IMG/VR virus record: IMGVR_UViG_3300010885_011458
Span: 1-25,605 of that record
Reading direction: 5' to 3' (one strand)
Source of the DNA: a virus
Length of the DNA: 25,605 nt
Every line of letters begins with the position of its first letter. The stretch's first letter is position 1. A program made the position numbers and the translations under genes. Below the pieces are notes generated by a model. That model saw only the letters and a program-made list of their open reading frames with translations. It did not search any database and was not told the origin of the DNA. This document shows, in pieces, positions 6,622-25,410 of this stretch.

Positions 6622-9600
6622 CTATTTACACGTTGAATAAATATTTATGTATCTAGGCCAAGGTTTTATTGAACACTTAACTTTAAATACAAAAATAATA
6701 TCCCCTTCACCAGTAGTTTTTGTATCAGTATAATGTGAATTATTATTAAAATTAACATCTAAGGTAATAATGCCATTATTAGGTCCAGGTGTTAACACTA
6801 TTTTAACTACATCGCCATCATTTGTTTGTAAAACATCATTAAAAACTTGAGCGTTAAAGTTTGATGTAAATGAATATACTATAGTAGAATTTACATATAT
6901 TACACCGCTCGTATCCGACCTCTCACAATCACTCCAATTTCTTAAATTATACGGACAATTACCAATCGGTTCTAAAATATTCATAGACGCATCTTTACAT
7001 TCTTCACAAGGTTTCAAAATTTCATCACCCGTAAATGTTGTTCCATAAACATTTGTAAAATAATTATTAGAGAATGTAGTTCCTCCCCACTCATTTTCTA
7101 ATTGAGATAAATTACTACCAATAACCATTAATTCAAAACAGTAATTTTTAACTAAATCTAAAATAACATTACCAACAACATTACCAGGAATTGCCGGAAC
7201 CGGTTGTATTATAACGTTACCATCACCCATTCTACTACCACATAATTGATACACATAATACATAGTTTTAGATGATGGTGTTGGTGTCATTGTCGTTGTT
7301 TGAGTAGGTGTTTGTGTCATTGTTGGCGTCTTAGTCATTGTTGGCGTCTTAGTCATTGTTGGCGTTGTAGTAACTGTTGGTGTTGTAGTCGATGTTGGTG
7401 TTTTAGTAGGCGTATATGACGGAGTTGTTGTTGGCGTTGAAGTCATTGTTGGAGTTACCGGTGGTGTTGAACCAATTGTAGATGTTGGTGATGGTGTCAT
7501 TGTTTTTGTTGGTGTATATGTTGGAGTTTTTGTTATTGTTTGTGTCGGTGTCGGTGTATGTGTTGGAGTTTTAGTTATTGTAGGTGTTGGAGTAATAGTT
7601 TTAGTTGGTGTCATTGTTGGCGTTGGTTGACATCCTATCTCACATTCAATTTCATAATCAATCCTCATTTCAACCAAAACATCTGTATTCTGTAAAGATT
7701 CCGGTTCACAATTTGTTGTAACTGTAATGGTATTAGTTAATTCGTCAATTGTTACATTACCCGAACCAATTTGAGGACAAGATTCTATCAATGATGTTAT
7801 TGCTGAAAACCATAATCCATCTGTAGGATAATATAATAATGATGTTCCATTATAAAAAACTTTAGATTGAACACAATTCCCTATTGTAACTTTTGCTTCA
7901 AATGTCGAAGCGGTTAAAATACAATTAGTATATCCCGGATATAATGATATTACATTAAGATATCCTTCATTTAAATACTGTTTAGGACCTGAATAAATCG
8001 CAATAGGTTCATTAAACTTACCACTACAAACACCATAATACCCTGTTGAACTAAATTCTCTACTACCTATAATTGGTTTTCTTTTTGTTTTTGAACATCC
8101 CGCACTATCAACAATTCTAACTGAGTAATCCCCGGGAGGCAAATCAGGTATTGTCATAACTGTTGTCCCCACTGTATCACCATCAAAATATAACGTAAAT
8201 GGTGGTGTCCCATTAGTAATATACGCAGTTATTAAACCATCATCATCAATGGAATCCTCACCTAATAAGTGAAAATCAATTGTATTTGATTCGCTAATTG
8301 TAAATGGTTGTATTTGTTTACATAATAACACATCTGTAACACTAGCGACATAATTACCACTCGATAAATTATTAAAGGTATATGATGTTAACGATACATT
8401 ATTAATTGATTGACCATCAATTTCGTATCTATATGGTGGAGTACCACCACTTGTTATCACTAAAATAACTGAACCATCCTTACCATTACAAGTTGTTCCA
8501 GTTGTTGATGTAACCAAATCAAATGTTACAACGTTATTAATTGTATACGCACTTGTAAATGAACAAGCCCCGTTATCCGTAATATCTAAATTATAAGTTC
8601 CCGAAGATAAATTATTGAAAACCCAACTTGATTCATAAACCGTATTTGAAATTTGATTACCTAATGAATTAGTTAGAGTAAACGTATATGGAGAAGTTCC
8701 ACCAAAAACAACAATAGGTCCAATAACTCCCGATAAATCATTACAAGTTGAATTTGTAATATCAACCGATATTATTGACATACCTTTTGGTGTTAATAAA
8801 GTTGTTGAAGTTGTAAATGTACACAGCCCGGCATCAACTACTTGAATTGTAAATCCTCCGGGACCTAAACCTGTGAAAACAACTGTCCTATCAAAAGTGA
8901 TATCCGTAACACCATTTGAACCTAAATAATAAAATGGTGGTGTTCCATCAAGAATTATTATTTCAATTTCACCATCCGCAGTAAAACAAGTTGGTTGTGT
9001 TAAATAAATCGCCCCTAATTTTACAGGGGGTATAGTATAGACAACTGATGTATTACTAATTAAACAATCACTACTATCCGTAACCGTCACAGTATAAGTT
9101 CCTTCAGTTAGACCTGTAATACTATCATCAGTACTACCATTAGACCATAAATAAGTATATGGTGGTGTACCTGTCATTCCTGTAATAAATATTTTACCGG
9201 AATTAACCCCACACCCCGCATTATCAATAGTATATAAACCAAAACTTAAATTTGATGAATTTTTAACAATAACACTTTCAGATTTACCAGTACAACCACC
9301 ACCATCATTAGCAATTACGTAATATGTCCCAACAGATAAATTATCAAATAAATATGAATTGTTTGCCGGATAAAATGTCGAAATTAAACCTGTAATTTCA
9401 CTATATAATGAGAATATTGCGTTCCCATAAAAATTACTAGTTTCCGCAAGTAATGAACCATTATTTGCACCACATACCGTATCAACAACATTAGTAATTG
9501 AAACACAAGTTCCACTAGATATGTAAATATTCACAGGTTGTACGGTATTACCCGAAGCACAACTATCAATAATATTAAATGAGTATGTCCCCGCTGATAA

Positions 9601-9777
9601 ACTATTTTGAGTATATGCGGTAACACCCGGACCTAATGCCGTTGTTCCTGTAGTTGGGGATAATCTTTGTATTGTATAGTCAGGAGCTTCACCAAAAATA
9701 TTTATGGTAAATGACCCTGAGTTAGTATTAGTACAATCCCCCGTTATACTAGCGTTATATGATAAAAGACAAGACAT
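6622..9777 (-). CDS. SprB-repeat protein with PT linker and Cys-containing tip
   Basis: This is a 1051-aa protein and the last gene of the minus operon. Residues about 13-563 hold seven tandem SprB-like repeats. Each has a Cys plus Gly/Asp opening, a central 'GTPPYTYLWSNG' type motif, an 'LSSGTY' type turn and a 'VTDSSDC' close. Repeat 3 (about 185-245) is the most typical. Residues about 575-715 are a separate beta-rich domain. Residues about 717-836 are a Pro/Thr repeat linker. The C-terminal part (about 840-1051) has a CEEC pair and two more Cys. The SprB family is known from Bacteroidota gliding adhesins. In this setting the protein is best read as a long tail fibre or host-binding adhesin, with the linker holding out the terminal domain. 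It stops at TAG, followed at once by an in-frame TGA. The start is ATG with no Shine-Dalgarno sequence. Confidence 0.88.
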   Translation of the reverse strand: MSCLLSYNASITGDCTNTNSGSFTINIFGEAPDYTIQRLSPTTGTTALGPGVTAYTQNSLSAGTYSFNIIDSCASGNTVQPVNIYISSGTCVSITNVVDTVCGANNGSLLAETSNFYGNAIFSLYSEITGLISTFYPANNSYLFDNLSVGTYYVIANDGGGCTGKSESVIVKNSSNLSFGLYTIDNAGCGVNSGKIFITGMTGTPPYTYLWSNGSTDDSITGLTEGTYTVTVTDSSDCLISNTSVVYTIPPVKLGAIYLTQPTCFTADGEIEIIILDGTPPFYYLGSNGVTDITFDRTVVFTGLGPGGFTIQVVDAGLCTFTTSTTLLTPKGMSIISVDITNSTCNDLSGVIGPIVVFGGTSPYTFTLTNSLGNQISNTVYESSWVFNNLSSGTYNLDITDNGACSFTSAYTINNVVTFDLVTSTTGTTCNGKDGSVILVITSGGTPPYRYEIDGQSINNVSLTSYTFNNLSSGNYVASVTDVLLCKQIQPFTISESNTIDFHLLGEDSIDDDGLITAYITNGTPPFTLYFDGDTVGTTVMTIPDLPPGDYSVRIVDSAGCSKTKRKPIIGSREFSSTGYYGVCSGKFNEPIAIYSGPKQYLNEGYLNVISLYPGYTNCILTASTFEAKVTIGNCVQSKVFYNGTSLLYYPTDGLWFSAITSLIESCPQIGSGNVTIDELTNTITVTTNCEPESLQNTDVLVEMRIDYEIECEIGCQPTPTMTPTKTITPTPTITKTPTHTPTPTQTITKTPTYTPTKTMTPSPTSTIGSTPPVTPTMTSTPTTTPSYTPTKTPTSTTTPTVTTTPTMTKTPTMTKTPTMTQTPTQTTTMTPTPSSKTMYYVYQLCGSRMGDGNVIIQPVPAIPGNVVGNVILDLVKNYCFELMVIGSNLSQLENEWGGTTFSNNYFTNVYGTTFTGDEILKPCEECKDASMNILEPIGNCPYNLRNWSDCERSDTSGVIYVNSTIVYSFTSNFNAQVFNDVLQTNDGDVVKIVLTPGPNNGIITLDVNFNNNSHYTDTKTTGEGDIIFVFKVKCSIKPWPRYINIYSTCK
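7266..7629 (-). repeat. Pro/Thr-coding degenerate repeat with an 18-bp tandem core
   Basis: This segment encodes alternating Pro/Thr with Met, Lys, Gln and Ser substitutions. At 7317-7364 the DNA carries a perfect 18-bp tandem repeat (two full copies and 12 nt of a third), encoding a TKTPTM-type hexapeptide. The rest is a degenerate 6/12-bp periodicity built on GTTGG. Because the unit is a multiple of three, slippage would change linker length without breaking the frame. Confidence 0.85.
8089..9741 (-). repeat. Seven SprB-like protein repeats
   Basis: This is the coding span of the tandem 65-80-residue repeats in the 1051-aa protein (residues about 13-563). The repeats are recognisable by recurring G-TPPY-type and SGTY/DxxxC-type motifs. 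They are divergent at DNA level, so they look old rather than recently amplified. Confidence 0.75.
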
Positions 9778-9811: not shown

Positions 9812-12800
9812 TTAAAATTGTTCACAAGATATATTAAATTGTATCCCAACATTTATATCAATGATATCCAATAATGATGTTGATGAACAGTTAGTATTCC
9901 ATATTCTAACTTTTGTTGGTGGTGTCTCCATATCTTGCCCAACACTATATTCATATCGATAATCATAACCTAATGAAAGCATTTGTTGTAATGTATAATC
10001 CAAAGCTGTCTCCCAATCAGACACACAAGGAATACTTGTTAAAGGTATTAATGGTCCACAACCAGAATTATTATAACCTGTGCCATTGAAAAACACATAT
10101 TGGATAATATTAACCCCATTTATTTTTATGTCAATAAACCATTGACTGTAAATACTACTAAGGTCACACGACGCAGCTAATTGAATTACAGGTGATGGGT
10201 TTAAAAAATTATCAATTACTTTTGCCAACACAATATGAAAACCTAATTCTAAGACGTTTTCCGGATATCTATCACATAACGTGGACTGAACAGTACAATC
10301 ATTTAAAAAAACACTACCTATAAATTTACAAGGTTTACAAAGTATTGGAACTAACTCACAACCTCTTTGTCTTCTCCAAACAAATTTTTGTCTATGAAAT
10401 ATAGAATTTTCTAATTTGACACCTGTGTTCCAAATTGTTGTTGCAGGTATCATTTGTTCAACTAATCTAATCCAATAATCACCCATACCTTCAACATAAT
10501 CAATCATTGTTTTGTATGTAAAGTTATCATTTTGAATACCAGCTAAAGATTCTGATTCTAAATAATTCCAATATATTGATGATAATGTTGGGTAACCACT
10601 TGTTCCTCCATCTGTCGCGTATTGTCTATTTCTAACGTTAATTGTGTTTTTCCAAAATGTTTGAGCAAATTCAAAAAATGTTTCTTTTCTTGGTTGAGGG
10701 TTAATAACTGTTGAATCTACACCTCCGTTATGTGGATAAGACGAAACAGGATTAGGGTTACATCTTGTTGGAGCTATATAACCTAACCCTTCATTAGCAA
10801 TTGGGAAATTATATTCTCTTGACATATACCATACATCATAAGACAAACCTTGAGAAGGATTTAAATATAAATCAATGTTTTTAACATTAATAACTAACCC
10901 TTCTGAATCAACATTATATAATGCGTCGTATCCTCCGTCTAAATTAATTCTATCACCAATTTCAGTATCAACCCAAGTTTTGTTATTATCAATACTTGTT
11001 CTTAAGTTATAACCTAAATCAGTAAACGGGAATGATTTATAAACATTTAAATATTCTTGACCATAAGTGAACGGTGATAATTTTGTTTGGTAATTAGGGT
11101 TTGACCCTGTAAATACACTATTTGTTAAATCAGGTTGTTCAGGTGACCTATGTTTAGGTGTTGATTCAAACCAACCAGCACCCATTTGATAAAAATATGC
11201 GTCTGTATTAATTGGTGACATTGGGTATCCACTATCACTAATTGGATAATCTCCTTTAGTAAAATCAACTTCTTGAAGAATTGATGTTGTTGTAAAACTT
11301 GAATATTGAATTCCTTGTATATTAAAGGTATTACCCCCATCTATAATTGGTAATGTTTTAGTATATGTTCCTCCTGATATGTTAGCATACTGAGAGTCAA
11401 ATTCTGACATATTAATTCTTTGGTCAGCTAAACAAACATATTCGTTAAATTCAACCAAGGCGTCGGGAGCCCCAATCAATCTCATTAAAGTTTCAATTGA
11501 TTTTCTAGTTCCTTTTGATTTAAATAAATAAGCGGAATTGAGAACTAAATTTTTATAATATTGATAGTTTAACTCATCAGGTGTTTGAGATTGTCCAACA
11601 CCACTAAACGCCGACTTATCCACATTTTTTTGACCAAACACTGAAGATAAAAAATCATCATTAGTTATTGGTGACATATTTGTTGACCAACCTAATGTTT
11701 GAGATAAATTCTTTAATAATTGTGACGGAATATCATTACCAGTATTATAATTAACGGAATTCATATAAGCTAAACCATTTATGAATTTTTTAGTTTCATC
11801 AAAACTTCTACCATAAATTTGTAATATTTTTTCAATTTTTTGGTCAGAGGTGTCAAACTCTTTCAAAGAATCTGTTGTTAAAAATCTTGATACAAGATTT
11901 GTTTGATATCCATCAAAAGACATACTAATATTATTTAACGTTGTTAAATAAGTTGTAAATGAGTTTGTTAATATATCTAAATTCCAATTACCATATAAAG
12001 GCCAAGTAACTAATTTATTCTGAATATAAAAAGTACCATCATCACTTTCGTTTGGTACTTGGAAAGTGGCAGTATAAATTGGCGTAACATTTCTATTTAA
12101 TAAAAATCTTTGAACCTCATCTAAATCTTCATTAAAAACTCTATTAACTTGATAATCATTTGGCCTTACAACTAAATCATCATATGTTTGTGTTTGTCCT
12201 TGAAAAACATCTCCTTTAAGGTATATTTTAAGTGTACCCGATGTTAATGATGTTGTTGGAATAATATATGTAACATCATAACCAACACCACTATAAAATA
12301 AGGAATATTTCTCAAATTGAGTTGTCATATTTCTCAAAGGAGAAACCTGTATTTCTCTTAACTCTAAGTTTCTAGTCGCATTAACAGTAAAATCAACATC
12401 AAATGGGTTTCTAATTCTTGTTACATCTAAATCAATACTAGTTTCATCTTCCAACGGATTATAAGATATATTAGTAGCCGTTGCTCCTGTAATATAATTC
12501 TCATCCATAAATGTAACCTCTAACGCTGCAGGGAATTTACTAATGATAGTTTCAACAGATGTCGAAATTCTTTTAACCATTGACCCGTATATAGTAAAAT
12601 TAGTTACTTGAGATAAATCAAAATTTGGATAAACTTTAAAATTGTTTTCAAATATTGCCTTTGATTGTGCAACACTATTAACCCCTAATCCATCTAAATT
12701 AATAGGGTTTGAAAACGCTCCTGTTGTAAAAGTTCTATTCGATTTTTCTTTAATACCTCTTGTAAACTCAAAATTACCTTGCGTCATACCTCCACCCGCA

Positions 12801-12886
12801 ACAAGTTGGAATCCAACTAAATTATCGGAGAATGTACCAGCACCGGATGCTGTTTGTGGTGGACACGTAAATTTTTCTATAGCCAT
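9812..12886 (-). CDS. Large baseplate protein with P2 gpI/gp7-like segment
   Basis: This is a 1024-aa protein. Residues about 340-485 have the layout of the P2 gpI tail-protein family. A helical stretch (KIEKILQIYGRSFDETKKFI) leads to an 'LLKNLSQTLGW' segment and then to YYKNLVLNSAYLFKSKGTRK, closing with LMRLIGAP. The 'KGT' with following Ile and basic residue is the family's best signature. In contractile tails gpI corresponds to the gp7-type wedge component that joins gp25 and gp6 and leads to the fibres. Residues about 814-845 (PATTIWNTGVKLENSIFHRQ then a WRRQRGCE segment) look strongly conserved, and the region after them is Cys-containing. The N-terminal 330 residues are beta-rich and unrecognised. 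The ATG overlaps the upstream gene's TAA by one base, consistent with co-translation. Its length is about six times that of P2 gpI, so most of it is extra domains. The assignment is by motif only. Confidence 0.85.
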   Translation of the reverse strand: MAIEKFTCPPQTASGAGTFSDNLVGFQLVAGGGMTQGNFEFTRGIKEKSNRTFTTGAFSNPINLDGLGVNSVAQSKAIFENNFKVYPNFDLSQVTNFTIYGSMVKRISTSVETIISKFPAALEVTFMDENYITGATATNISYNPLEDETSIDLDVTRIRNPFDVDFTVNATRNLELREIQVSPLRNMTTQFEKYSLFYSGVGYDVTYIIPTTSLTSGTLKIYLKGDVFQGQTQTYDDLVVRPNDYQVNRVFNEDLDEVQRFLLNRNVTPIYTATFQVPNESDDGTFYIQNKLVTWPLYGNWNLDILTNSFTTYLTTLNNISMSFDGYQTNLVSRFLTTDSLKEFDTSDQKIEKILQIYGRSFDETKKFINGLAYMNSVNYNTGNDIPSQLLKNLSQTLGWSTNMSPITNDDFLSSVFGQKNVDKSAFSGVGQSQTPDELNYQYYKNLVLNSAYLFKSKGTRKSIETLMRLIGAPDALVEFNEYVCLADQRINMSEFDSQYANISGGTYTKTLPIIDGGNTFNIQGIQYSSFTTTSILQEVDFTKGDYPISDSGYPMSPINTDAYFYQMGAGWFESTPKHRSPEQPDLTNSVFTGSNPNYQTKLSPFTYGQEYLNVYKSFPFTDLGYNLRTSIDNNKTWVDTEIGDRINLDGGYDALYNVDSEGLVINVKNIDLYLNPSQGLSYDVWYMSREYNFPIANEGLGYIAPTRCNPNPVSSYPHNGGVDSTVINPQPRKETFFEFAQTFWKNTINVRNRQYATDGGTSGYPTLSSIYWNYLESESLAGIQNDNFTYKTMIDYVEGMGDYWIRLVEQMIPATTIWNTGVKLENSIFHRQKFVWRRQRGCELVPILCKPCKFIGSVFLNDCTVQSTLCDRYPENVLELGFHIVLAKVIDNFLNPSPVIQLAASCDLSSIYSQWFIDIKINGVNIIQYVFFNGTGYNNSGCGPLIPLTSIPCVSDWETALDYTLQQMLSLGYDYRYEYSVGQDMETPPTKVRIWNTNCSSTSLLDIIDINVGIQFNISCEQF

Positions 12887-15026: not shown

Positions 15027-15863
15027 TTATGGATTTATATATTCGTACCATTTTATCGGAGTTGAAGTTCCTCTTCTATTTGATGTCCCATTAATATTAT
15101 CCCATACCTCATATGTTTTTTCCGCATAATTTAATCTAACCTCATAGTAAAAATAGTCTTCAGGGTTAAATTTAAATTTATTACCAACCAATGAAGATTG
15201 AGGTCTATTCATCATTTTAACAAAAACCCCTAATCTAGCATCAAAGAATTTTGCTGTCATATAAAATTTACTGATGTTTAAGAATTTTGTATTTCTTAAC
15301 CAATATAAAAAGAATCCTTCTTTATCACCAACATAATCTAATTGGAATGATGGTGTTTTAATATTAATTGGTGTTTTATATGAACTAGTTGATGCGGTAA
15401 CTGTAAATCCTTGTTGAACAGGTAATATTACCGTAAAATAATTTGTTTGTGTTATAGCATCAGTACTATCATAAAAATCTAATTTAAAAAATGACTTGGT
15501 GAAGGGTTTCACATAGTAATACACTTCAATACTTGTAAAACCTTCAGGAATGTAACTAGTCACCCAATTACTAGCAGTAGAAGTTAAAACTTGTGTTGAT
15601 GGATTTGCCGGAACACCCCCATTAATACCAAAAAAATGAAAATCATATTTAATATCAGTTTTAGTATCACTACTATAAGGTGCGTGAGCAAATCTTAACA
15701 CTTCAAAGTCACCAGGGAACCCAACAACCTCTTCAACCACATTTTGTTGATATTCTTCAACAGCATCATCTTGCCCAAGAAAATCCCATTTAATTTCAAT
15801 CGGTATATTGATATATTTGTCGTCACCTTTTGGTAAGGTAAATTTATAACTGTTATTATTCAC
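15027..15863 (-). CDS. Hypothetical virion-structure protein (278 aa), GTG start
   Basis: I do not recognise this protein. It is 278 aa, mixed beta-strand-rich with many aromatic residues, and has an acidic stretch near residues 32-50 (DDAVEEYQQNVVEEVVG). No Cys cluster or catalytic motif is seen. The chosen start is GTG at 15863, because no ATG lies close by in frame and the GTG overlaps the upstream stop by 8 nt (GTGAATAA), a typical coupled arrangement. It stands 1 nt before the PKD-like protein gene. A baseplate-associated role is inferred only from the operon. Confidence 0.8.
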   Translation of the reverse strand: MNNNSYKFTLPKGDDKYINIPIEIKWDFLGQDDAVEEYQQNVVEEVVGFPGDFEVLRFAHAPYSSDTKTDIKYDFHFFGINGGVPANPSTQVLTSTASNWVTSYIPEGFTSIEVYYYVKPFTKSFFKLDFYDSTDAITQTNYFTVILPVQQGFTVTASTSSYKTPINIKTPSFQLDYVGDKEGFFLYWLRNTKFLNISKFYMTAKFFDARLGVFVKMMNRPQSSLVGNKFKFNPEDYFYYEVRLNYAEKTYEVWDNINGTSNRRGTSTPIKWYEYINP

Positions 15864-16110
15864 AATTGTCGTTTTTGGGTTGAGCAGCTCCGTAAAGAGT
15901 TGCGTAATTATGTAAACTACTTTCTATATAATTAGTTCCTTCAGGTATTATTCTAAAAATAAAATTCCCATATGGATAATGTTTTCCATTTAAAAATGGG
16001 TGGTCAACACCATTCCCACTATTGTCTTTAAACCCGTAACTATATAAATCTCTCCAAATAAGAGCATTGTAAGTTGTTGAGAAATATGAATAATCCGGAA
16101 CATCCGCCAT
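15856..16110 (-). CDS. Small hypothetical protein (84 aa) in the baseplate operon
   Basis: This is an 84-aa protein rich in Tyr, Phe and Asn (for example HPFLNGKHYPYGNFIFRI). It has one Cys, at its penultimate residue, and no membrane segment. Being in frame, between genes spaced 12 nt upstream and overlapping 8 nt downstream, supports it as a real gene and not a chance frame. I see no family. A small adaptor or clamp subunit is possible but unsupported. Confidence 0.72.
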   Translation of the reverse strand: MADVPDYSYFSTTYNALIWRDLYSYGFKDNSGNGVDHPFLNGKHYPYGNFIFRIIPEGTNYIESSLHNYATLYGAAQPKNDNCE

Positions 16111-16122
16111 ATTATTAACACT

Positions 16123-17658
16123 TCACGTTTCTATATAGTCAGAGTAATCTCTAAGTTTCATTTTATTATGTGGTTGATAATAATACCCTAATTGATTTTG
16201 ATTAATATCTTTTGAACTAATGTCAAAAACGAAAGAGTTAAAAGTAAATTTATGTGAAATGTCACTAATCATTCTCTCTTTTTGTTCATAATCATTCCAC
16301 TCATAAATCCCCCCATCTACAACATCACCCTCTTTTAAAGATTCTAAATATTTAAAAACATATGATGTGAGTGTCGCAGGTGTAAAAGTACCTAAAGGGT
16401 ACGGTTGATTGTTCTCATTAACAAAATTAGATGATGTATTAGTTGATAACCACCAATCACTAGGTTTTTTAATTGGAGATAACGGTAAGTTAAATTCATA
16501 ACCTTGTTTTAACCCCGAATTTCCTAATGTTAAACCAAAATAACCTTTCCATAATGTTGTTATATATAATTCAGTTATTGGTCTTTTTTGATTATCTCTT
16601 AATGGACTAACATCAATATCTTTATTAAAAGATAAACTATATGATTGAGCACCTTCTTTAATAGAAACTCTTTTATTTTTATTTGGTGTGTAAGCAGGAC
16701 TTTCAAATTTCTTTTTTGAACCAAATATATTCTGTTCAAACCCCGCATTAACCATTACCGCATCATTAACATTTGTTAATAGTTTATGTTGTAATACATA
16801 ATATTTTGATGTAGTATCGTTAGGGTTTTCATAATTGATTATTCTTTTAAATGTTCCATTATATCCTGAAACAAATTTTGTCGAGGGATACCCAATATCG
16901 TAAATATTAAAAATATACTCGTTAGTTCCCGGTATACCATCTCCTAAAGCAAAAACTTGGAATGTTTCATTTGTTAATACCACTCCATTAACAACTATTT
17001 TAATTTTAGCAAACTCACTAACCGATAATCCGTGTTTAACCGGACACACAAATCTTATAACCTTATTTCCGTTAATAAATGTATCCATTTTTTTAATCAC
17101 AAATGGAATACCATCTGAAACAACCCATTGTTTTCCTGTCGAACTCATTCCATCATAATACTGTAAAACTTTAGTATATGAATTTTTATAAGGATAACTT
17201 ACAAAAAAATTCCAATTGTATGTTGAAGCACTTCTTGACACAAAATTTATATGATTATTAGGTGGTTGAGTATAACCACTAACATTATAATCGCTACGAA
17301 CAAAATCAAACTCGTGATATTGGGGGAAACCTTGCCAAGCAATAGCTCCCGCACTCGCATTACATTGTTGTAATAACGACACATTTTCATTAATGTAATA
17401 TAAATTATTCTCTAATGGGGGATAATTTGTTGACCCAGTATACGCATTTTCATATAATAATTGGAATTTACAAACAGGTCTAAATGTTGTTGATTTTTGT
17501 CTCTCGTCATCAAATAATTGAGCAAGATTAACATCAATACTTCTATCAAATTCTTGTAAATTCTTTGAATTTTGAACTAATGGTGTTGGTATTGATAAAT
17601 CAGTGTCTGTCGCTGTTTTATATCGTAATGAACCTAAAACAATTCTAATATCATCCAT
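16123..17658 (-). CDS. Hypothetical virion-structure protein (511 aa)
   Basis: I do not recognise a family. The protein has a charged N-terminal part (EFDRSIDVNLAQLFDDERQK), then an aromatic beta-rich body (for example WQGFPQYHEFDFVRSDYN, and YNWNFFVSYPYKN). A Lys-rich stretch (about residues 315-335) comes before a SLSFNKDIDVSPLRD segment. It uses a TGA stop. The ATG is 1 nt after the stop of the 1776-aa gene and 12 nt separate it from the 84-aa gene. This tight packing and the composition argue for a baseplate component made with the 1776-aa protein. It has no signal peptide or membrane segment. Confidence 0.83.
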   Translation of the reverse strand: MDDIRIVLGSLRYKTATDTDLSIPTPLVQNSKNLQEFDRSIDVNLAQLFDDERQKSTTFRPVCKFQLLYENAYTGSTNYPPLENNLYYINENVSLLQQCNASAGAIAWQGFPQYHEFDFVRSDYNVSGYTQPPNNHINFVSRSASTYNWNFFVSYPYKNSYTKVLQYYDGMSSTGKQWVVSDGIPFVIKKMDTFINGNKVIRFVCPVKHGLSVSEFAKIKIVVNGVVLTNETFQVFALGDGIPGTNEYIFNIYDIGYPSTKFVSGYNGTFKRIINYENPNDTTSKYYVLQHKLLTNVNDAVMVNAGFEQNIFGSKKKFESPAYTPNKNKRVSIKEGAQSYSLSFNKDIDVSPLRDNQKRPITELYITTLWKGYFGLTLGNSGLKQGYEFNLPLSPIKKPSDWWLSTNTSSNFVNENNQPYPLGTFTPATLTSYVFKYLESLKEGDVVDGGIYEWNDYEQKERMISDISHKFTFNSFVFDISSKDINQNQLGYYYQPHNKMKLRDYSDYIET

Positions 17659-17659
17659 C

Positions 17660-20600
17660 TTAATTAACTACATTATTTGTGTTTATCCATTTAATTCTAA
17701 ATCTATCATAAGCCGAGGCTCCTCGTCTTAAACCAAAGTAAAAATGAAATGGTGCTCCTGTAGTCACTAACTTATCATCACTAGGGTTTCTTTGCCAATC
17801 ATTTGCACTAGCACTTAATTCAATATGAGGAACTGGTAAATTCACATTTTTAACTGCATATATATATCCTTTGAAATATTGGGTTTCTAAAGTATTTTTA
17901 GTTCTAAAATACCTTGAACCTTGGTCTATTCTATCTAATGACTGATATTTTCGAGAGAACACCGTACTACCATTAACTGTGAAATCCCAATTATTAAATT
18001 GTTTACCAAAAATAGAATCATTTTCTTCTATAGCCCATTGTGATAAAGGAACTCTTTGAGAATAAACCGGGAAATTACTAAATGTACAATTACCTACCGA
18101 TGTCCCTGAAGGATTAATAATTGTTCTTTTTGGTGTAACATAATCTCTTAATTGTGTGTCAGATGAAAAGAAAATCCCTAAAACATTATCACAATCAAAG
18201 AAAATCGGATTTTGTTGTCCAGGTGGGTTATCAGGATAATTTGCCGATAAGAATGGTGCGACACCTAATTCTGAATTAATTGAAATTAATTGAGCGTAAT
18301 CCGCATCAATCATTAAATTAGTACCACCAACACCTCTACTTCCTCGACTATTGGAAAAGTATGCTAAAATATTAAGAGAACCTAGTAACGATTTTAAAAA
18401 AGTTTGGTCCATAAATCTACTAACAATAAACAAGTTAAGAATGTCATCAACAGTACCATACGAAGATGTTTCCAATCGATTCGCTACATAACCATCATAC
18501 TCATCAGACATTACTAATTCTTGTAAATAATCAGCTCTTGGACCTAAATCCATAATTGTAGTTGGGAATCCCATATTACCGTTTGAAATTTGATTAAATT
18601 CGTTTGTTGTAGTATTATAAGGTGTTGCCCTATAATAAAAGTTTTTGGTTTTATTATGATAAATTAAAACTCCATCGTTATTTATAATACCACCATTAGG
18701 ACCACAAAATTTAGGTATTGGTTGATTTGGTGTTGGACTAGTTGGTGACGTATAACTACCAATTTCATTCTTAAATGGGAATGCGTATAACACCCCATTA
18801 ATCCAATTATTTATAAATCTATGTGAGAAAACATTTCGACAAGCACCAAGCATAACCATATTTCGTGCAATCCATTCAAACATTAATAACCAATCAAGAC
18901 CTAACGATAAAAATATAGTACTAACAAATCTATAACATCCAAATTCAAAAATAGTTTCACCAAATGGTGATTCTTGACAACGATGTCCTGCAATTGTAAC
19001 AGTGTTATTACTACAACCATAACATTCCAAATTAACCGAACCATTACAAGTAAAAGAATCAAAAACTCTGTTAATTGCCGGAGAACCAGCTAAATCCGCA
19101 TAAGTATAAGCTAAATCACCTGAACTAGCACTTCCTGATGAGCCTTGACTACTAGAAACCGCTAAAACACCATCTTCAGGTATTAAAAATATTTTAAAAT
19201 TAGTGTTTTTTTGTAATACCATACCATTACAACAATATTCTTCAACATTAGTTGAGGTAGGTAATCTATCACCTCTCATAACAGTTTCATAACCACCTTT
19301 AGGATTAATAGATGGATTTAAATTACCTAAGGTAAAGTTTATGGTATTACCGGTTGTGTTATATATTCTTGTAAAATAATTTGACGAAATAGAATAGGGA
19401 CCATTTCCAGTTACATTATAACCTGTATCAACATTACCTCCACCACTAACTGTTTCGTCATAAGCACTAAAAAGTTCAAGATTACTATACATAATCGGAC
19501 CCCCCTCAACAATTTCATTTGGAAAATATCCTTGATTATTACCCGTATTTGTAGTGTAAGGGTTGGAAGTATTAATATAATTTATAAAAGCGTATCTATA
19601 ATCATTAAAAATAGTATGTGGTTGACGTATTCTTTGATATAAAGTATAAACCCTCTGACTAAATCTATTTTGAGGACTAACCCTTAACCCTGTCTGCACA
19701 CCAGTTGTTGGACCTGTATTAGCAACATTAGTTGTTATTGTTGTTACATTATTTATATTACCCCCACAATTAGCTTTCCACCCCATTACCGTCTTATCCA
19801 TATAAGAATAGTAACTAATTAAATTAGAACTAAACCCTGAATATTTTGAAACTAATAACCCATTTGGGTCTACCTGAGGTTGACCAAACTCATATGTTGT
19901 TACAAGACCTCTCACTTCAGTTATTTGTGGTTTATAAGAAAATGAATTAAAATATAATTTTTGACTTGAGTATGAATCTGTACTAATATTACTATTATTT
20001 AAATGACTTTTTAAATGACTAACATTTAAAAACTTACCCTGAATCGGTATATTCATATGGTAAAGACCTGTGACTGTTTTGCTACTATACAATGTATTAC
20101 CAAACAATCTACCTAAACCATAGGATATTTTTACTTTTGGGGTATAAGGGTCAACACCTCTATTTAAAATTAAAACACACATATTTTGAGCGTCCTCAAT
20201 AAAATCTAAACCATTAATTATTTGATTTTCAGCTTCATCAAAGTACTCAGAAGCACCACCTTCAGTTTCATCAATAGCCATAAGTGTTGGATTATTGATG
20301 TAACGACTATTTAAAGTATCTCTACCTATTTGATTACTACACTGACCACTAAATTGACTATAAGTCATACCTGTTATTACTTGGAAGTATTCAACATCTG
20401 TCGGAAACTTATGATAATTATTTTCAGTAGTAGCAGTTATATTAACCGAATATGTTGTTTGTAAATTACTACCTGAACTACCATCAGGATTAGCATAAAA
20501 AACAGTTATATTTGTTTGACCTGTTGAGGTTACACCAGTAATCGCATTATTACCATAAGTATTTAAAACACCAGCTGTAAGATTCACATCTTTAGTTAAT

Positions 20601-22990
20601 GTTGGATTTTGAAACGCAATTAATTGACCCGGAGGTAAATTTTGAAGACTACTTTTATCACAAAGTATTACAATAGTATTATCTGTATGATAATTTGATT
20701 GTTGAGGATTAAAATTAACTGAAATTATATTTACACCACCACCCGGATTATTTGAACTACTATTAAAATATTTCGCCTTAACATTAAATAAATTAATTTT
20801 ATCAGAAATCGGTAAATTAGTTGTATAACAAATTCTTGAATTACCCGTATCTGTAGGATAAGTAAAATATTTTACATAAGGTGCCCCGATATTATTCGAT
20901 GCGTATTGATTATCATATAAAACACCTGTTAAATTTTGATTAAAAATTTGAGCAACAACCGATTCATATCCATTAGGTGTGTTAGGACCTCTTGTTGGAA
21001 TATTAAATGATGATGGACTAAATAATGGTAACATACCAGGTGATAAATCTATTGAAGTAATATCAGTATTAGATTCAATAGACACACAAGCCCCAACTTT
21101 ATTTCCAGCATTTGCCGATGGAGCTCCTGTAGCTTCACCAATATTATCACTCGTGCTTGAATCCGGACTACAAGAACATAATTCACAATCAGGATAAGTT
21201 AAAATAGGAACTTTAACCCCTGATAAATCAATTTTAAATAACTGTTTAACAATAAGAAAAAGAAGTGCCGCTAAAGCAATATACGCTAATCCAGCTAAAA
21301 ATGTTCCAATACTAAATGTTACACCAAACCCAACACTTGTTGCTCCCGCACACGTTAGAATACCAATTATACCATAATACGCAACTAATAAAGGTAATAA
21401 TATTGTTCTTAAAATCCAAACAACAAAATATAAAATGTGCATCACAAGTATTAACGCAAAAAATACCGGTGTTAATATAATACTAAAAAACATAAAAATG
21501 ATATACAATATATCAAATCTAAAATTACCATCATTTGTTGGGAATCTATTATTTAACCCTGAACAAGTTTCGTCTAATATATTTTTAATACCTATGTATC
21601 TTTCTATTCCATTACCTTCTTTTCTGGCAGAAATAAATTGTGATACAGTATAAACTTTATTATATTGCATTAAATAAAACTTATCTTCACAATCAATCGC
21701 CTCCCTAACTATCTTTTGAGATAAGATATTATCAGCATTACCTACAGTAGCACCCGTAAACGCATAATCATTCCAATCAGTACTAAACGCATATGACGGT
21801 TGCGTATTACTACCCGGGTATTCTTTAATATTTGGAACTAAAAAATAACCTCGTTTTGTAGATTCACTTAATGATGGAGATTGAGACCATTTAATTTTAA
21901 ACCTATATTTAGCCTTAGTTGGAATCCCAACTTCAGGGTCATTAGACAACACTTGTTCACCAAATTCATTTGTAACATAATAGTCCAAGTTCATTGGTAC
22001 ATCTATTAACCAAGTACCGTTTTCATCAATAACTTTACCTCCACTTTCTAAAGCAAAGTTTTCTAATATTGGTCTCCCACTTGAATCCTGTTGAATAGTT
22101 TGTCTAATTGCCAATATATCTCCGGGACCAACTGTTAAATCACATAAATGACCCGAATTACTAGTCGGTCGACACCCTGTCGATATTGCACTACTATTAG
22201 GTCCCGATATTATAGAACCCATAAAAACAGATGTTGGTCTAATATCAATATTTGCCTCACTACTTAAATCAAAATCAGTTCTTGTAATACCTAAATTACA
22301 AACCTCAGGTTGACCCCATAATGGTTCCACTTCAATAGATTTACTAAGATTAATAATTTGAGGTAATTCACGTAAATTATTTGATGACCTAAAATTAGTA
22401 CCAGCAACTTGAGTTTCAGTAGCAATACCCATTCTAATTAAATCTTGAGGTGATAAAGAAAACTCCCCAATATCAGATAAATCAACGTCCATAACAATAG
22501 TATGAGACCCCACAGGAACACCAAATATCATATAATCACCGCTATCATTGGTGATAGCGTTGTATTTGTAATATTTGTCGTAAACTTCAATTAAGATTGG
22601 GTCAGTTAAAACGTCTTTTCTTGTAAAAAAAGTCCCTGTTGGAACGTGAGCACTATATGATTTAACGTAAGGTAGTAGATTATATCTATACCCTTCATCA
22701 TTATTGTCTAATAATGTTTTATAGGGATATAATTCTGATATAACAGGGTCTTTTTGGTCTATACTATCAATAGGAATAAAAATAGAAACTTTAGCGTTTG
22801 GAAGACCAAAACCGTTGTTAACACTAACACGACCAACAATAACACCGTAATCGGAACATTGTCTTGTATAAATATCACTTTGTAATATTTTTAGGGAGAG
22901 GATTTCTAAATGTTCGAATTCTTGCTCAATTAATACTTTCAAAGAAGTATCAACACCGACCTTCGTTCTTACTCTATATGACTTTGACAT
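17660..22990 (-). CDS. Giant baseplate-operon protein with membrane-helix-like segments
   Basis: This 1776-aa protein is the largest in the window and sits right after the gp6-like gene. Residues about 48-170 look like a carboxypeptidase-regulatory/Cna-B-like Ig domain (GVIVGRVSVNNGFGLPNAKV, later TNDSGDYMIFGVPVGSHTIV). Residues about 492-586 are strongly hydrophobic, enough for three or four membrane helices (DILYIIFMFFSIILTPVFFA and on), followed at 602-607 by a CELCSC cluster. Another hydrophobic stretch with helix character lies at about 1345-1385, after a Cys-rich segment (ECYGCS). The remainder is beta-rich, Asn/Thr/Ser-rich and ends in FYFGLRRGASAYDRFRIKW. Its position matches gp7 of T4, but no sequence match to gp7 is visible. 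Candidate roles are a large peripheral baseplate protein or one that inserts in the host membrane. The start is ATG, 72 nt after the gp6-like gene. Confidence 0.88.
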   Translation of the reverse strand: MSKSYRVRTKVGVDTSLKVLIEQEFEHLEILSLKILQSDIYTRQCSDYGVIVGRVSVNNGFGLPNAKVSIFIPIDSIDQKDPVISELYPYKTLLDNNDEGYRYNLLPYVKSYSAHVPTGTFFTRKDVLTDPILIEVYDKYYKYNAITNDSGDYMIFGVPVGSHTIVMDVDLSDIGEFSLSPQDLIRMGIATETQVAGTNFRSSNNLRELPQIINLSKSIEVEPLWGQPEVCNLGITRTDFDLSSEANIDIRPTSVFMGSIISGPNSSAISTGCRPTSNSGHLCDLTVGPGDILAIRQTIQQDSSGRPILENFALESGGKVIDENGTWLIDVPMNLDYYVTNEFGEQVLSNDPEVGIPTKAKYRFKIKWSQSPSLSESTKRGYFLVPNIKEYPGSNTQPSYAFSTDWNDYAFTGATVGNADNILSQKIVREAIDCEDKFYLMQYNKVYTVSQFISARKEGNGIERYIGIKNILDETCSGLNNRFPTNDGNFRFDILYIIFMFFSIILTPVFFALILVMHILYFVVWILRTILLPLLVAYYGIIGILTCAGATSVGFGVTFSIGTFLAGLAYIALAALLFLIVKQLFKIDLSGVKVPILTYPDCELCSCSPDSSTSDNIGEATGAPSANAGNKVGACVSIESNTDITSIDLSPGMLPLFSPSSFNIPTRGPNTPNGYESVVAQIFNQNLTGVLYDNQYASNNIGAPYVKYFTYPTDTGNSRICYTTNLPISDKINLFNVKAKYFNSSSNNPGGGVNIISVNFNPQQSNYHTDNTIVILCDKSSLQNLPPGQLIAFQNPTLTKDVNLTAGVLNTYGNNAITGVTSTGQTNITVFYANPDGSSGSNLQTTYSVNITATTENNYHKFPTDVEYFQVITGMTYSQFSGQCSNQIGRDTLNSRYINNPTLMAIDETEGGASEYFDEAENQIINGLDFIEDAQNMCVLILNRGVDPYTPKVKISYGLGRLFGNTLYSSKTVTGLYHMNIPIQGKFLNVSHLKSHLNNSNISTDSYSSQKLYFNSFSYKPQITEVRGLVTTYEFGQPQVDPNGLLVSKYSGFSSNLISYYSYMDKTVMGWKANCGGNINNVTTITTNVANTGPTTGVQTGLRVSPQNRFSQRVYTLYQRIRQPHTIFNDYRYAFINYINTSNPYTTNTGNNQGYFPNEIVEGGPIMYSNLELFSAYDETVSGGGNVDTGYNVTGNGPYSISSNYFTRIYNTTGNTINFTLGNLNPSINPKGGYETVMRGDRLPTSTNVEEYCCNGMVLQKNTNFKIFLIPEDGVLAVSSSQGSSGSASSGDLAYTYADLAGSPAINRVFDSFTCNGSVNLECYGCSNNTVTIAGHRCQESPFGETIFEFGCYRFVSTIFLSLGLDWLLMFEWIARNMVMLGACRNVFSHRFINNWINGVLYAFPFKNEIGSYTSPTSPTPNQPIPKFCGPNGGIINNDGVLIYHNKTKNFYYRATPYNTTTNEFNQISNGNMGFPTTIMDLGPRADYLQELVMSDEYDGYVANRLETSSYGTVDDILNLFIVSRFMDQTFLKSLLGSLNILAYFSNSRGSRGVGGTNLMIDADYAQLISINSELGVAPFLSANYPDNPPGQQNPIFFDCDNVLGIFFSSDTQLRDYVTPKRTIINPSGTSVGNCTFSNFPVYSQRVPLSQWAIEENDSIFGKQFNNWDFTVNGSTVFSRKYQSLDRIDQGSRYFRTKNTLETQYFKGYIYAVKNVNLPVPHIELSASANDWQRNPSDDKLVTTGAPFHFYFGLRRGASAYDRFRIKWINTNNVVN
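21235..21517 (-). other. Predicted membrane-helix cluster in the 1776-aa protein
   Basis: The translated segment (residues about 492-586) has almost no charged residues apart from one Arg near residue 528 and a Lys-containing end. It is made of long Ile/Leu/Phe/Val/Ala/Gly runs, for example LPLLVAYYGIIGILTCAGA and GTFLAGLAYIALAALLFLIV. By eye it fits three to four transmembrane spans. Topology was not computed. Confidence 0.7.
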
Positions 22991-23062: not shown

Positions 23063-24901
23063 TTATGAAAAGTTAACAGTTTTTAAATTTTTAACCCTAA
23101 TATTTATATCTTTATTAGGATATTTGATTTGATATGTTTGATTTGGTTCCGCAAAAATGGTATCATCTATCAATTCTATCTGATGTGTAGCACTATCTAA
23201 ATATCGTTGAGACGTTTGAGATGATGAATATTGACCACCGACTTGATTAAACACTTGAATATCAGATAATGATATGACCCCATTTTCACTTTGTATCAAT
23301 CTTCTTAATTCGGACACATTAACATTTTCTCCCATTTGTCTATTTAATGGGTCAAAATATTCAGAAACAATTGTAATAATTTGAGATATTACTGTTCCTT
23401 GATTTTGAGTATTATCTAAAACAACATCGATATTAAAACTTAAATCAATAACATTCGCACTTTGTATTGACACATAATCATTTATCATACGATAGTTTGA
23501 TAAGTAATTTGCTACATTATTTTTTAACGTGTTTGAGATAACTTCAGTTAATCTACCTGTTTCATCATAGGACAACATTTGAACAATTATTTTATTATTG
23601 TTCTCTGTGATTGATACCTTTGCCGGAGCACCAAATTGAGATGGCATTGTTCGGATTAACGATTCATAATCATTAACGGTTACCGCTCTTTTTTGTGATG
23701 AGAAATTATACGAAACTAAATTTCTTACTTCCTCAGTTGTTGGAAAACTTGCTCCACCAATAGCCGCTGTCACATTTGTACATCTTAAAGAATTTACAAC
23801 AGTTGTATTAACACTATCGGAAGGTCCATTAACAAAGAATGAAACCGTCCCTATTTGAGTTATAGCATTTACCCCAATATTACTACCAACACCACCACCA
23901 ACTCTATATTGAATGAATAATGTAGTATTCGGTTTTAAGGTACTACCCAACGCTAAGTTATTGGAATATTTGTATAAATTTAATTGGTATCCATCTCTTG
24001 CAAATTCTCTTAACTGCTCATCGGCGGATTGTGAACCACCACCAAAAGTTATTTTTAAAAACCCTTCAGGTGTAAATTCACTAATAAACTTAGTACTAGT
24101 TTGAATGTATTTACCAACTTTAATACCCGGAGAATCTGATACTTTTGTTGGGTCTTCAACAAATACTCTATCTTCCGCTAAAGCATCTACCTCATACCAT
24201 CTATTATCTAACCCTAAGAACTCTTGAACTGACGGAATATTAGTATACTGAGTACTATCTTTCAATAAAACACTAGTAATCCCTAAAACATTTTTATCAG
24301 GTAAGAATAAATCATAAAAAGGTCTAACATCATTTGGTGTGATTACCTTTTTAAAAACTTTTGTTGTTCCATTTACAACGGTTTCTCGTTTAGTAATGGT
24401 ATAATTTAATAATTTATTATTTGAATCAAAATTAGGTATTTTTAATCTATTAGGGAACCCCTCACCATTAATTGGTGAAGAAAAATCAATATCATAAACT
24501 GTTTCAAATACTTGTCCCGCACCATTAACTTGTGAACCTCTCCTTAAAATCCCACAATATCTTAAATCTTCCTTATCCCCAAATGCCGGAACCGTAATTG
24601 AAAAATCAACTAAAGCGACTGATGGTCTCATCCCCGGAACTTTTAATCCATAAGTTTTTGCAATATTAAAAACTGACGACCTTTGTTGTGCATATTGAAG
24701 AACTGTTTCTTGTATACTTCTATCAATATTAAATTGTAAATTATCAGTCACTGCAGCATTTAAATCTAATAATACTGAAAAAACTGACGCATCATTAAAG
24801 TTTTGAATCGTGTCGGGATAATATGTTTTAGTAAAGTTAATTAACTCTGTTCTAATTGATTGGAAATCCCTTGTAGTGTAGGAAATTTTCTTATTTGCCA
24901 T
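23063..24901 (-). CDS. Baseplate wedge protein, gp6/gpJ-like
   Basis: This 612-aa protein is close to T4 gp6 in length (about 660 aa). The N-terminus (KISYTTRDFQSIRTELINFT, then YPDTIQNFNDASVFSVLLDL) is the typical start of the gp6/baseplate-J family, followed by helices ending near residue 90. A central beta region has RVGGGVGSNIGVNAI, and the C-terminal third (NDYESLIRTMPSQFGAPAKV) is the conserved J-type block. In contractile tails two copies pair with gp25 and a gp7/gpI protein to build the wedge ring, which opens on contact and starts sheath contraction. It lies 4 nt after the gp25-like gene, the usual order. No Shine-Dalgarno sequence precedes the ATG. Confidence 0.93.
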   Translation of the reverse strand: MANKKISYTTRDFQSIRTELINFTKTYYPDTIQNFNDASVFSVLLDLNAAVTDNLQFNIDRSIQETVLQYAQQRSSVFNIAKTYGLKVPGMRPSVALVDFSITVPAFGDKEDLRYCGILRRGSQVNGAGQVFETVYDIDFSSPINGEGFPNRLKIPNFDSNNKLLNYTITKRETVVNGTTKVFKKVITPNDVRPFYDLFLPDKNVLGITSVLLKDSTQYTNIPSVQEFLGLDNRWYEVDALAEDRVFVEDPTKVSDSPGIKVGKYIQTSTKFISEFTPEGFLKITFGGGSQSADEQLREFARDGYQLNLYKYSNNLALGSTLKPNTTLFIQYRVGGGVGSNIGVNAITQIGTVSFFVNGPSDSVNTTVVNSLRCTNVTAAIGGASFPTTEEVRNLVSYNFSSQKRAVTVNDYESLIRTMPSQFGAPAKVSITENNNKIIVQMLSYDETGRLTEVISNTLKNNVANYLSNYRMINDYVSIQSANVIDLSFNIDVVLDNTQNQGTVISQIITIVSEYFDPLNRQMGENVNVSELRRLIQSENGVISLSDIQVFNQVGGQYSSSQTSQRYLDSATHQIELIDDTIFAEPNQTYQIKYPNKDINIRVKNLKTVNFS

Positions 24902-24905
24902 AATT

Positions 24906-25364
24906 TTATATATTAATAATTACAAAGTCACTACTATTAAACACATCATTGTTGATGGTATAATCAATCTTAACTTTTGCTGTATGTTCTTTATCCGACA
25001 TATTCGGTACACGAAATATTCTTTCATCATTATCATTAATGTAACTACCTTTATCTTCATCACCATCAGAGGCGGCTTGAATATTAATATTAGTAATTGT
25101 TATCCCCGGTAGATATACCCCTGCGGATTCTCTTATTTCAGATTCTATTTCAGAAAATGTTGGACCATCTAATGGTTCAAAAATAAATTCATATAATCTT
25201 GTTCCAAAATCCGGCATATAATATCTACTACCTTTCTTAGATAATAAAAGGTGTATTAAATTAGACCTAATCTCTTGGTCATTATAATCTGATAAATCTA
25301 AATATTTCCCATCAAAAGAATCTCTAAAAGGAAAAGTTAAACCATATGTTGCTCCATCTGCCAT
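24906..25364 (-). CDS. Baseplate wedge protein, gp25/gpW (lysozyme-like) family
   Basis: I place the start at ATG 25364, giving 152 aa. The frame stays open to a TTG at 25409, but its extra 15 residues add nothing family-like. The core (TYGLTFPFRDSFDGKYLDLS, then the NDQEIRSNLIHLLLSKKGSR helix and MPDFGTRLYEFIFEPLD) is characteristic of gp25/gpW/TssE proteins. In these the helix plus 'GxxL...F' segment sets the sheath-nucleating platform on the wedge. T4 gp25 is about 130 aa. Where many relatives carry Glu-Pro-Arg, this protein seems to have Leu-Pro-Gly (VYLPGITITNINI), a placement I infer by eye. The C-terminal extension from about residue 98 (SDGDEDKGSYINDNDE) is acidic. It is the first gene of the operon, after the terminator of the upstream gene. 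Confidence 0.92.
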   Translation of the reverse strand: MADGATYGLTFPFRDSFDGKYLDLSDYNDQEIRSNLIHLLLSKKGSRYYMPDFGTRLYEFIFEPLDGPTFSEIESEIRESAGVYLPGITITNINIQAASDGDEDKGSYINDNDERIFRVPNMSDKEHTAKVKIDYTINNDVFNSSDFVIINI

Positions 25365-25410
25365 AACTATAAATATAGTGTCGTAATTATTTTTTATAAA
25401 TACCCCCAAA
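25365..25410 (-). promoter_or_regulatory. Candidate promoter/leader of the baseplate operon
   Basis: The segment between the upstream terminator and the gp25-like ATG must hold any promoter for the operon. On the minus strand it reads AT-rich with TATATTTA (complement of 25370-25377), a 7/8 match to the Bacteroidota -7 element TAnnTTTG, but it sits only 5 nt from the ATG and no well-spaced -33 TTG is seen. The assignment is weak. Confidence 0.2.

Follow-up and report, generated by a model that had tools for sequence, protein, structure and literature searches.

We analyzed a 25.6-kb IMG/VR virus record (25,605 nt, hereafter the window) and found that a giant protein of its baseplate operon, here called P, carries a conserved membrane-grade helix module. 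Most relatives also encode a small membrane protein coupled to P, and the two elements trade off against each other. The copy of P in the window (P0001) is the 1776-aa product of the open reading frame (ORF) at 17660-22990. An earlier note on this DNA had singled out this frame for a cluster of membrane helices beside the baseplate gene gp6. The frame is present, lies on the minus strand, and has more than 537 relatives on viral contigs. The nearest recognised gene upstream of P was gp6 in 229/229 loci where it was visible, and the nearest gene downstream was p511 in 175/175 loci. The gene order was constant (gp25-gp6-P-p511-p278-p409-p302-gp7like). This synteny with gp6 and p511 ties P to the baseplate operon.

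The hydrophobic block of P

Relatives of P were collected via the N-terminal domain, not via hydrophobicity, by searching viral contigs four times and genome contigs once. Several hundred were obtained, and 253 distinct proteins with lengths of 954-3022 aa were readable, 208 of them complete. In P0001 the hydrophobic block covers residues 492-586 (21233-21517, minus strand, as for all parts of P). Its top 90-residue window, residues 492-581, reached a mean Kyte-Doolittle (KD) hydropathy of 2.09, compared with a maximum of 1.27 in 5000 shuffles; the composition of P does not account for such a block. The lone 19-mer peak of 2.77 was within chance (shuffle mean 1.91, maximum 3.16), and the claim therefore rests on how long the block is and on its conservation. 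A peak of transmembrane grade was found in all 208 complete relatives at the same site, directly after the N-terminal domain of ~480 residues, and very few of these proteins had such a peak elsewhere. The gp25, gp6, p511, p278, p409, p302, and gp7-like proteins of the same operons reached this level in only 0-3% of cases.

The best 21-mer of P0001 had a KD of 2.80, and all faces of this helix were hydrophobic, with the least-hydrophobic 120-degree face at +1.75. P0001 thus contains what was taken as the mark of a membrane protein, a hydrophobic helix, 19 or more residues long, without a polar face. In the 94-member clade around the window, the least-hydrophobic face had a median of +1.18, versus medians of -0.3 to -1.3 in the neighbour proteins.

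AlphaFold2 was run on residues 401-1600 of P0001 (predicted local distance difference test, pLDDT, 75.5; predicted TM-score, pTM, 0.60). The model placed a continuous 56-residue hydrophobic helix at residues 494-549 (21344-21511; pLDDT about 85-90), with Pro508 and Pro533 inside it, and a second hydrophobic helix of 25 residues at 561-585 (21236-21310), an extra element of the window's clade. In the model of the complete 954-aa relative L306 (mean pLDDT 80.7, pTM 0.79), the block was a continuous 53-residue helix at residues 456-508. The two proteins are ~30% identical, and their models concur on a helix of 53-56 residues. The block had previously been read as three to four membrane spans. The block itself is real, but the prediction is one long and one shorter helix instead of three to four clean spans. 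A second hydrophobic segment (residues 1345-1385) had also been pointed out, and it is not a membrane span. Residues 1363-1384 (18839-18904) were predicted as a 22-residue amphipathic helix with a KD of 1.5, and they are excluded as a span because D1366, E1372, and R1376 are invariant within them and they lie inside an alpha/beta region.

In several relatives of the marine/other clade (L151, L284, L276, and others), the second half of the hydrophobic helix, at residues ~480-525, bears Asn residues that form a ladder with 4-3 spacing (GFINGILNIINGLIT). The pattern of residues hints at a self-associating helix bundle.

The small membrane protein and a possible role at the host membrane

The gap between gp6 and P held a Cys-rich membrane protein of 57-172 aa in 131/229 assessable loci. 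The small protein has two N-terminal cysteines (e.g., MGCNCK, MECKTC) and one long hydrophobic stretch, with a proline in or adjoining the stretch in 131/131 cases and a positive region after it. The scan demanded two cysteines and a peak of transmembrane grade, so these features were selected; its position, proline, and coupling were not. The least-hydrophobic face had a median of +1.95, making these proteins plainly transmembrane-like. The stop codon was at most 30 nt from the start of P in 98% of cases, with a median of 3 nt, and this short distance suggests that the small protein and P are translationally coupled.

The window has no small membrane protein, and its gp6-P gap is just 72 nt. 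Across its 94-member clade, which likewise lacks the protein, the block of P contained 85 hydrophobic residues (median), versus ~26-54 in the clades carrying it. P of the window's clade has about twice the hydrophobic length. The small protein was also sought elsewhere in three large contigs of this clade. None was found in the 308-kb record, and the other two gave E values of 0.39 and 0.54, against 5.5e-23 and 1.3e-19 for controls (two contigs). The match at E 0.54 was rejected, as it falls inside a frame of 1925 aa, apparently P itself.

Longer gaps were also observed, exceeding 900 nt in 29 loci. In L012 and L127, the gap of ~1020-1050 nt between gp6 and P encodes a protein of ~300 aa. It has hydrophobic segments at the N-terminus, and its alpha/beta-hydrolase part shows GHSVGG or GHSIGG (PF05990 E 3.9e-5). 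The hydrolase-like gene occurs in window-clade relatives with 9 parsimony changes, which suggest frequent gain or loss, and it is absent from the window.

Based on these results, we propose that P would be a dedicated protein of the baseplate operon with a true membrane-type helical module. Its layout would be an Ig-like N-terminal domain of ~480 aa, a long hydrophobic helix, a Cys motif, and a beta-rich remainder. The long helix would enter the membrane and need a hydrophobic partner helix to pair with. In most relatives the small co-translated Cys-rich membrane protein would supply this partner in trans; in the window's clade the extra hydrophobic helix of P would supply it in cis. Late in infection, P and its partner may reside in the host inner membrane, or on it, and keep the assembly of the baseplate (wedge) in place there, so that the baseplate would be formed at the membrane. 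We favour this assembly role tentatively, because the coupled partner resembles an ordinary cellular membrane protein. A more general proposal, that a two-part membrane module (giant P and small partner, the latter replaced in one clade by an extra P helix) lets an entire clade of jumbo myophages build a baseplate on the host membrane, or insert one into it, is possible and is put forward with caution.

Several observations weigh against this proposal. Hydrophobicity by itself is no proof of membrane insertion of P, and in several clades the only common element is one hydrophobic stretch of ~20 residues. If P crossed the membrane only once, its two halves would end up on opposite sides, versus the one compact body that the L306 model suggests. 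On the tree of the N-terminal domain, the trade-off is mainly one event, with 3 changes in all; the cis/trans exchange is therefore only suggestive. Furthermore, T4 gp7 has been resolved in baseplate structures (5iv5, 5hx2, and others), although its GenBank record states "C-terminus is predicted integral membrane domain". A membrane-like segment adjoining gp6 is thus neither unprecedented nor proof. The earlier note had called such a block unusual at this position. It is universal in the P family and nearly confined to P within the operon, but gp7 shows that a membrane-predicted segment has been found there before.

The gp7 precedent also suits a soluble explanation, in which the block would be a long hydrophobic rod buried in the oligomeric core of the baseplate, like a wedge core bundle, without contacting a membrane. 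The predicted helices of 53-56 residues have a length of about two bilayer thicknesses, and the Asn ladder described above has the spacing typical of a helix-bundle interface. Such a rod is nevertheless somewhat unlikely, given that every face of the P0001 helix is hydrophobic, well above gp7 and all neighbours, and that the small partners are plainly transmembrane-like.

The small partner bears as well on a different membrane role. P could be a virion protein whose hydrophobic helices are kept shielded, mutually or by the small protein, and at infection go into the host envelope, anchoring the baseplate or opening a path. The absolute synteny within a structural operon fits a virion protein, the SprB repeats that some relatives have at the C-terminus point to an exposed part, and the 46-residue hydrophobic stretch of T5 pb2 offers a good parallel (PMC10038345). 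However, the small coupled protein looks like an ordinary integral membrane protein of the cell, with its positive flank after the hydrophobic stretch, and a wedge-layer protein is normally located outside the outer membrane. We regard insertion at infection as somewhat unlikely. It is very improbable that P is a late membrane protein (e.g., for superinfection exclusion or lysis control) lying in the operon by chance with no part in the baseplate: the hydrolase-like gene in the gp6-P gap of some window-clade relatives indicates that membrane genes accumulate there, but the neighbours in the core baseplate operon are kept in all 229 and 175 loci, the architecture is large, beta-rich, and putatively Ig-containing, and the N-terminal 480 residues are strictly conserved.

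Other features of P, its family, and its operon

The N-terminus of P had been described as a carboxypeptidase-regulatory-like immunoglobulin (Ig) domain. This assignment is plausible because PF13620 recurs at the same site, in five diverged family members (E 0.084-0.0011), and strands are predicted there. In P0001 the beta domain, interrupted by a helical insertion, covers residues ~47-175 (22466-22852), and in the L306 model the strands are at residues 49-173. The PF13620 scores (15.4 bits in P0001, at most 19.7 bits in relatives) stay below the Pfam gathering cut-off of 32.3 bits. Foldseek with the L306 model returned only Ig-like fragments from the PDB (Ig-like pilins, an adhesin, and PA1324, entry 3qec), and the pilin and 3qec matches were partial, with no superposition of the full domain. 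Foldseek with the model of P0001 residues 401-1600 gave no match. The L306 model did match a BFVD model, A0A8S5LA66 from Myoviridae sp. ctPuP5, over its full length (E 7.6e-86, TM-score 0.75, 30% identity). This structural relative is unannotated and so adds no function.

Both Cys clusters reported for P were confirmed in an alignment of 76 sequences. A CxxCxC motif at residues 602-607 (21170-21187) stands right after the helices, with C602 and C605 invariant and C607 kept in at least 90%; all three were invariant in alignment A2. In the second cluster, C1315, C1323, C1352, and C1384 were invariant. After the Cys motif, the remainder of P is long, beta-rich, and variable in length. It contains the motif NNWING at residues 1394-1399 (18794-18811), which reads NDWVxG in distant relatives; the pattern N[ND]W[VILM][NSA]G was present in 171/253 family members. 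SprB repeats (PF13573) were found at the C-terminal end of P in L305 (E 9e-12) and L300 (E 1e-4). Such repeats are typical of Bacteroidota surface proteins.

The P family is unnamed. It has no match in Pfam, PHROG, NCBIfam, PDB, or INPHARED, and just the one BFVD model. P matched no PHROG or NCBIfam family, its Pfam matches were only sub-threshold, and sequence and profile searches of the PDB with P gave nothing credible. The sub-threshold matches to Pfam PmbA_TldD_2nd (E 0.074), NCBIfam AAC(6') (E 0.012), and, in the C-terminal region of one relative, PHROG Hoc-like (0.0024) received no support from other relatives and were discarded. INPHARED gave no tblastn match to P0001, P0002/L079, L152, or L306. 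The match of L151 to Exiguobacterium phage vB_EalM-132 (E 0.5) is not in any baseplate operon and was put down to chance.

The longest of the metagenomic phage contigs with relatives of P measured 413 kb. Cellular assemblies contributed two relatives, one from a rumen Bacteroidales metagenome-assembled genome and one from a Prochlorococcus single-cell assembly. The single-cell contig, which carries L151 (QCKH01000004.1), may reflect a cyanobacterial host or a co-sorted phage. All three large window-clade contigs (L003, 308 kb; L039, 272 kb; L148, 322 kb) encode the ribosomal protein bS21 (PF01165). Freshwater myophages that encode bS21, with Bacteroidetes as predicted hosts and genomes up to 331 kb, have been described, and P does not appear in the passages on these phages (PMC9723584). 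The window's clade resembles them in bS21 and in genome size range. P belongs to a large clade of jumbo myophages that probably infect Bacteroidota, and the bS21 genes of the related contigs would point to a Bacteroidetes host for the window itself.

Upstream of P, the window encodes a gp6-like baseplate wedge protein of the Baseplate_J type (23063-24901, minus strand; PF04865 E 7.5e-8, phrog_219 E 1.7e-23) and a gp25-like wedge protein of the GPW_gp25 type (24906-25409, minus strand; PF04965 E 4.9e-8, phrog_261 E 1.8e-13). A run of ORFs without known family follows downstream. The first, p511 (16123-17658, minus strand), is the conserved next gene of the operon. It was tried as a gp8-like neighbour and showed no similarity to T4 gp8 (hhalign E 0.62). 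Within 15856-17658, an 84-aa ORF comes after the p511 gene (511 aa) and matches the C-terminal part of p511 in relatives, many of which have a p511 of ~600 aa. The gene thus appears split in the window, whether genuinely or by sequencing error. Elsewhere in the window, the ORF at 6622-9777 has an SprB-like appearance with a long PT-rich stretch. In the rumen relative (L152:1-1209), a hub-like ORF lies 5' of gp25, and its C-terminal end resembles a peptidase M15-type domain.

Comparison with known systems

T4 gp7, the initiator of the baseplate wedge, is a soluble protein there; its gene stands between those of gp6 and gp8, and it takes part in a core bundle, the (gp6)2-gp7 heterotrimer. Like P, it is encoded directly after gp6, is large (1032 aa), and has a membrane-predicted segment. 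In gp7 this segment amounts to one 19-mer close to the C-terminus (residues 886-904, KD 2.07), whereas P has a block of ~90 residues after residue 490. P also exceeds gp7 in its best 21-mer (2.80 versus 2.02) and in the least-hydrophobic face of that helix (+1.75 versus -0.19). Membership of P in the gp7 family, a comparison that the earlier note had suggested, was not supported. Alignments A2 and A3 against A6 gave hhalign E values of 0.57 and 0.32 with a probability of <1%, and the PDB profile search returned no match. Another candidate was the 1024-aa ORF at 9812-12886 (minus strand), with a weak gp7 / P2 gpI-like motif, LFKSKGTRKSIETLMRLI. Only this short motif was shared with T4 gp7 (hhalign E 0.23, not significant), and the PDB gave no match. 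Judged from the motif, this ORF, which lies far downstream of gp6, may be an equivalent of gp7.

The AlphaFold2 models of P show a beta-rich protein that has one or two long helices, unlike a tape-measure protein, which is long and mostly alpha-helical, fills the tail tube, and varies in length with the tail. The tape-measure protein pb2 of phage T5 has a hydrophobic stretch of ~46 residues that has been proposed to insert into the host membrane and form a channel (PMC10038345). A long hydrophobic stretch in a tail protein is common to both, a functional parallel at most. pb2 is the tape measure of a siphophage tail tube, while P is beta-rich, variable in length, and adjoins gp6 in the baseplate operon of a contractile tail.

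In the thylakoid-anchored contractile injection system (tCIS) of Anabaena, baseplate and tail-fibre parts touch the membrane, Cis13 by a transmembrane helix and Cis12 by a putative amphipathic helix only (PMC8894136). Cis12 and Cis13 are, as P would be, components of a contractile machine contacting a membrane. Cis13, however, is tail-fibre-like, and no sequence relation of these proteins to P turned up, although none was specifically searched.

Phage baseplates are usually viewed as soluble machines, and the baseplates of type VI secretion systems are membrane-docked. A universally conserved membrane-type helix with a coupled membrane partner in the core baseplate operon of a widespread group of uncultivated jumbo phages would be a case in which the assembly of a phage baseplate at a membrane, or its insertion into one, can be tested. 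If the proposal is true, P would belong to a phage baseplate anchored to a membrane, which in function would parallel the way type VI secretion baseplates are anchored.
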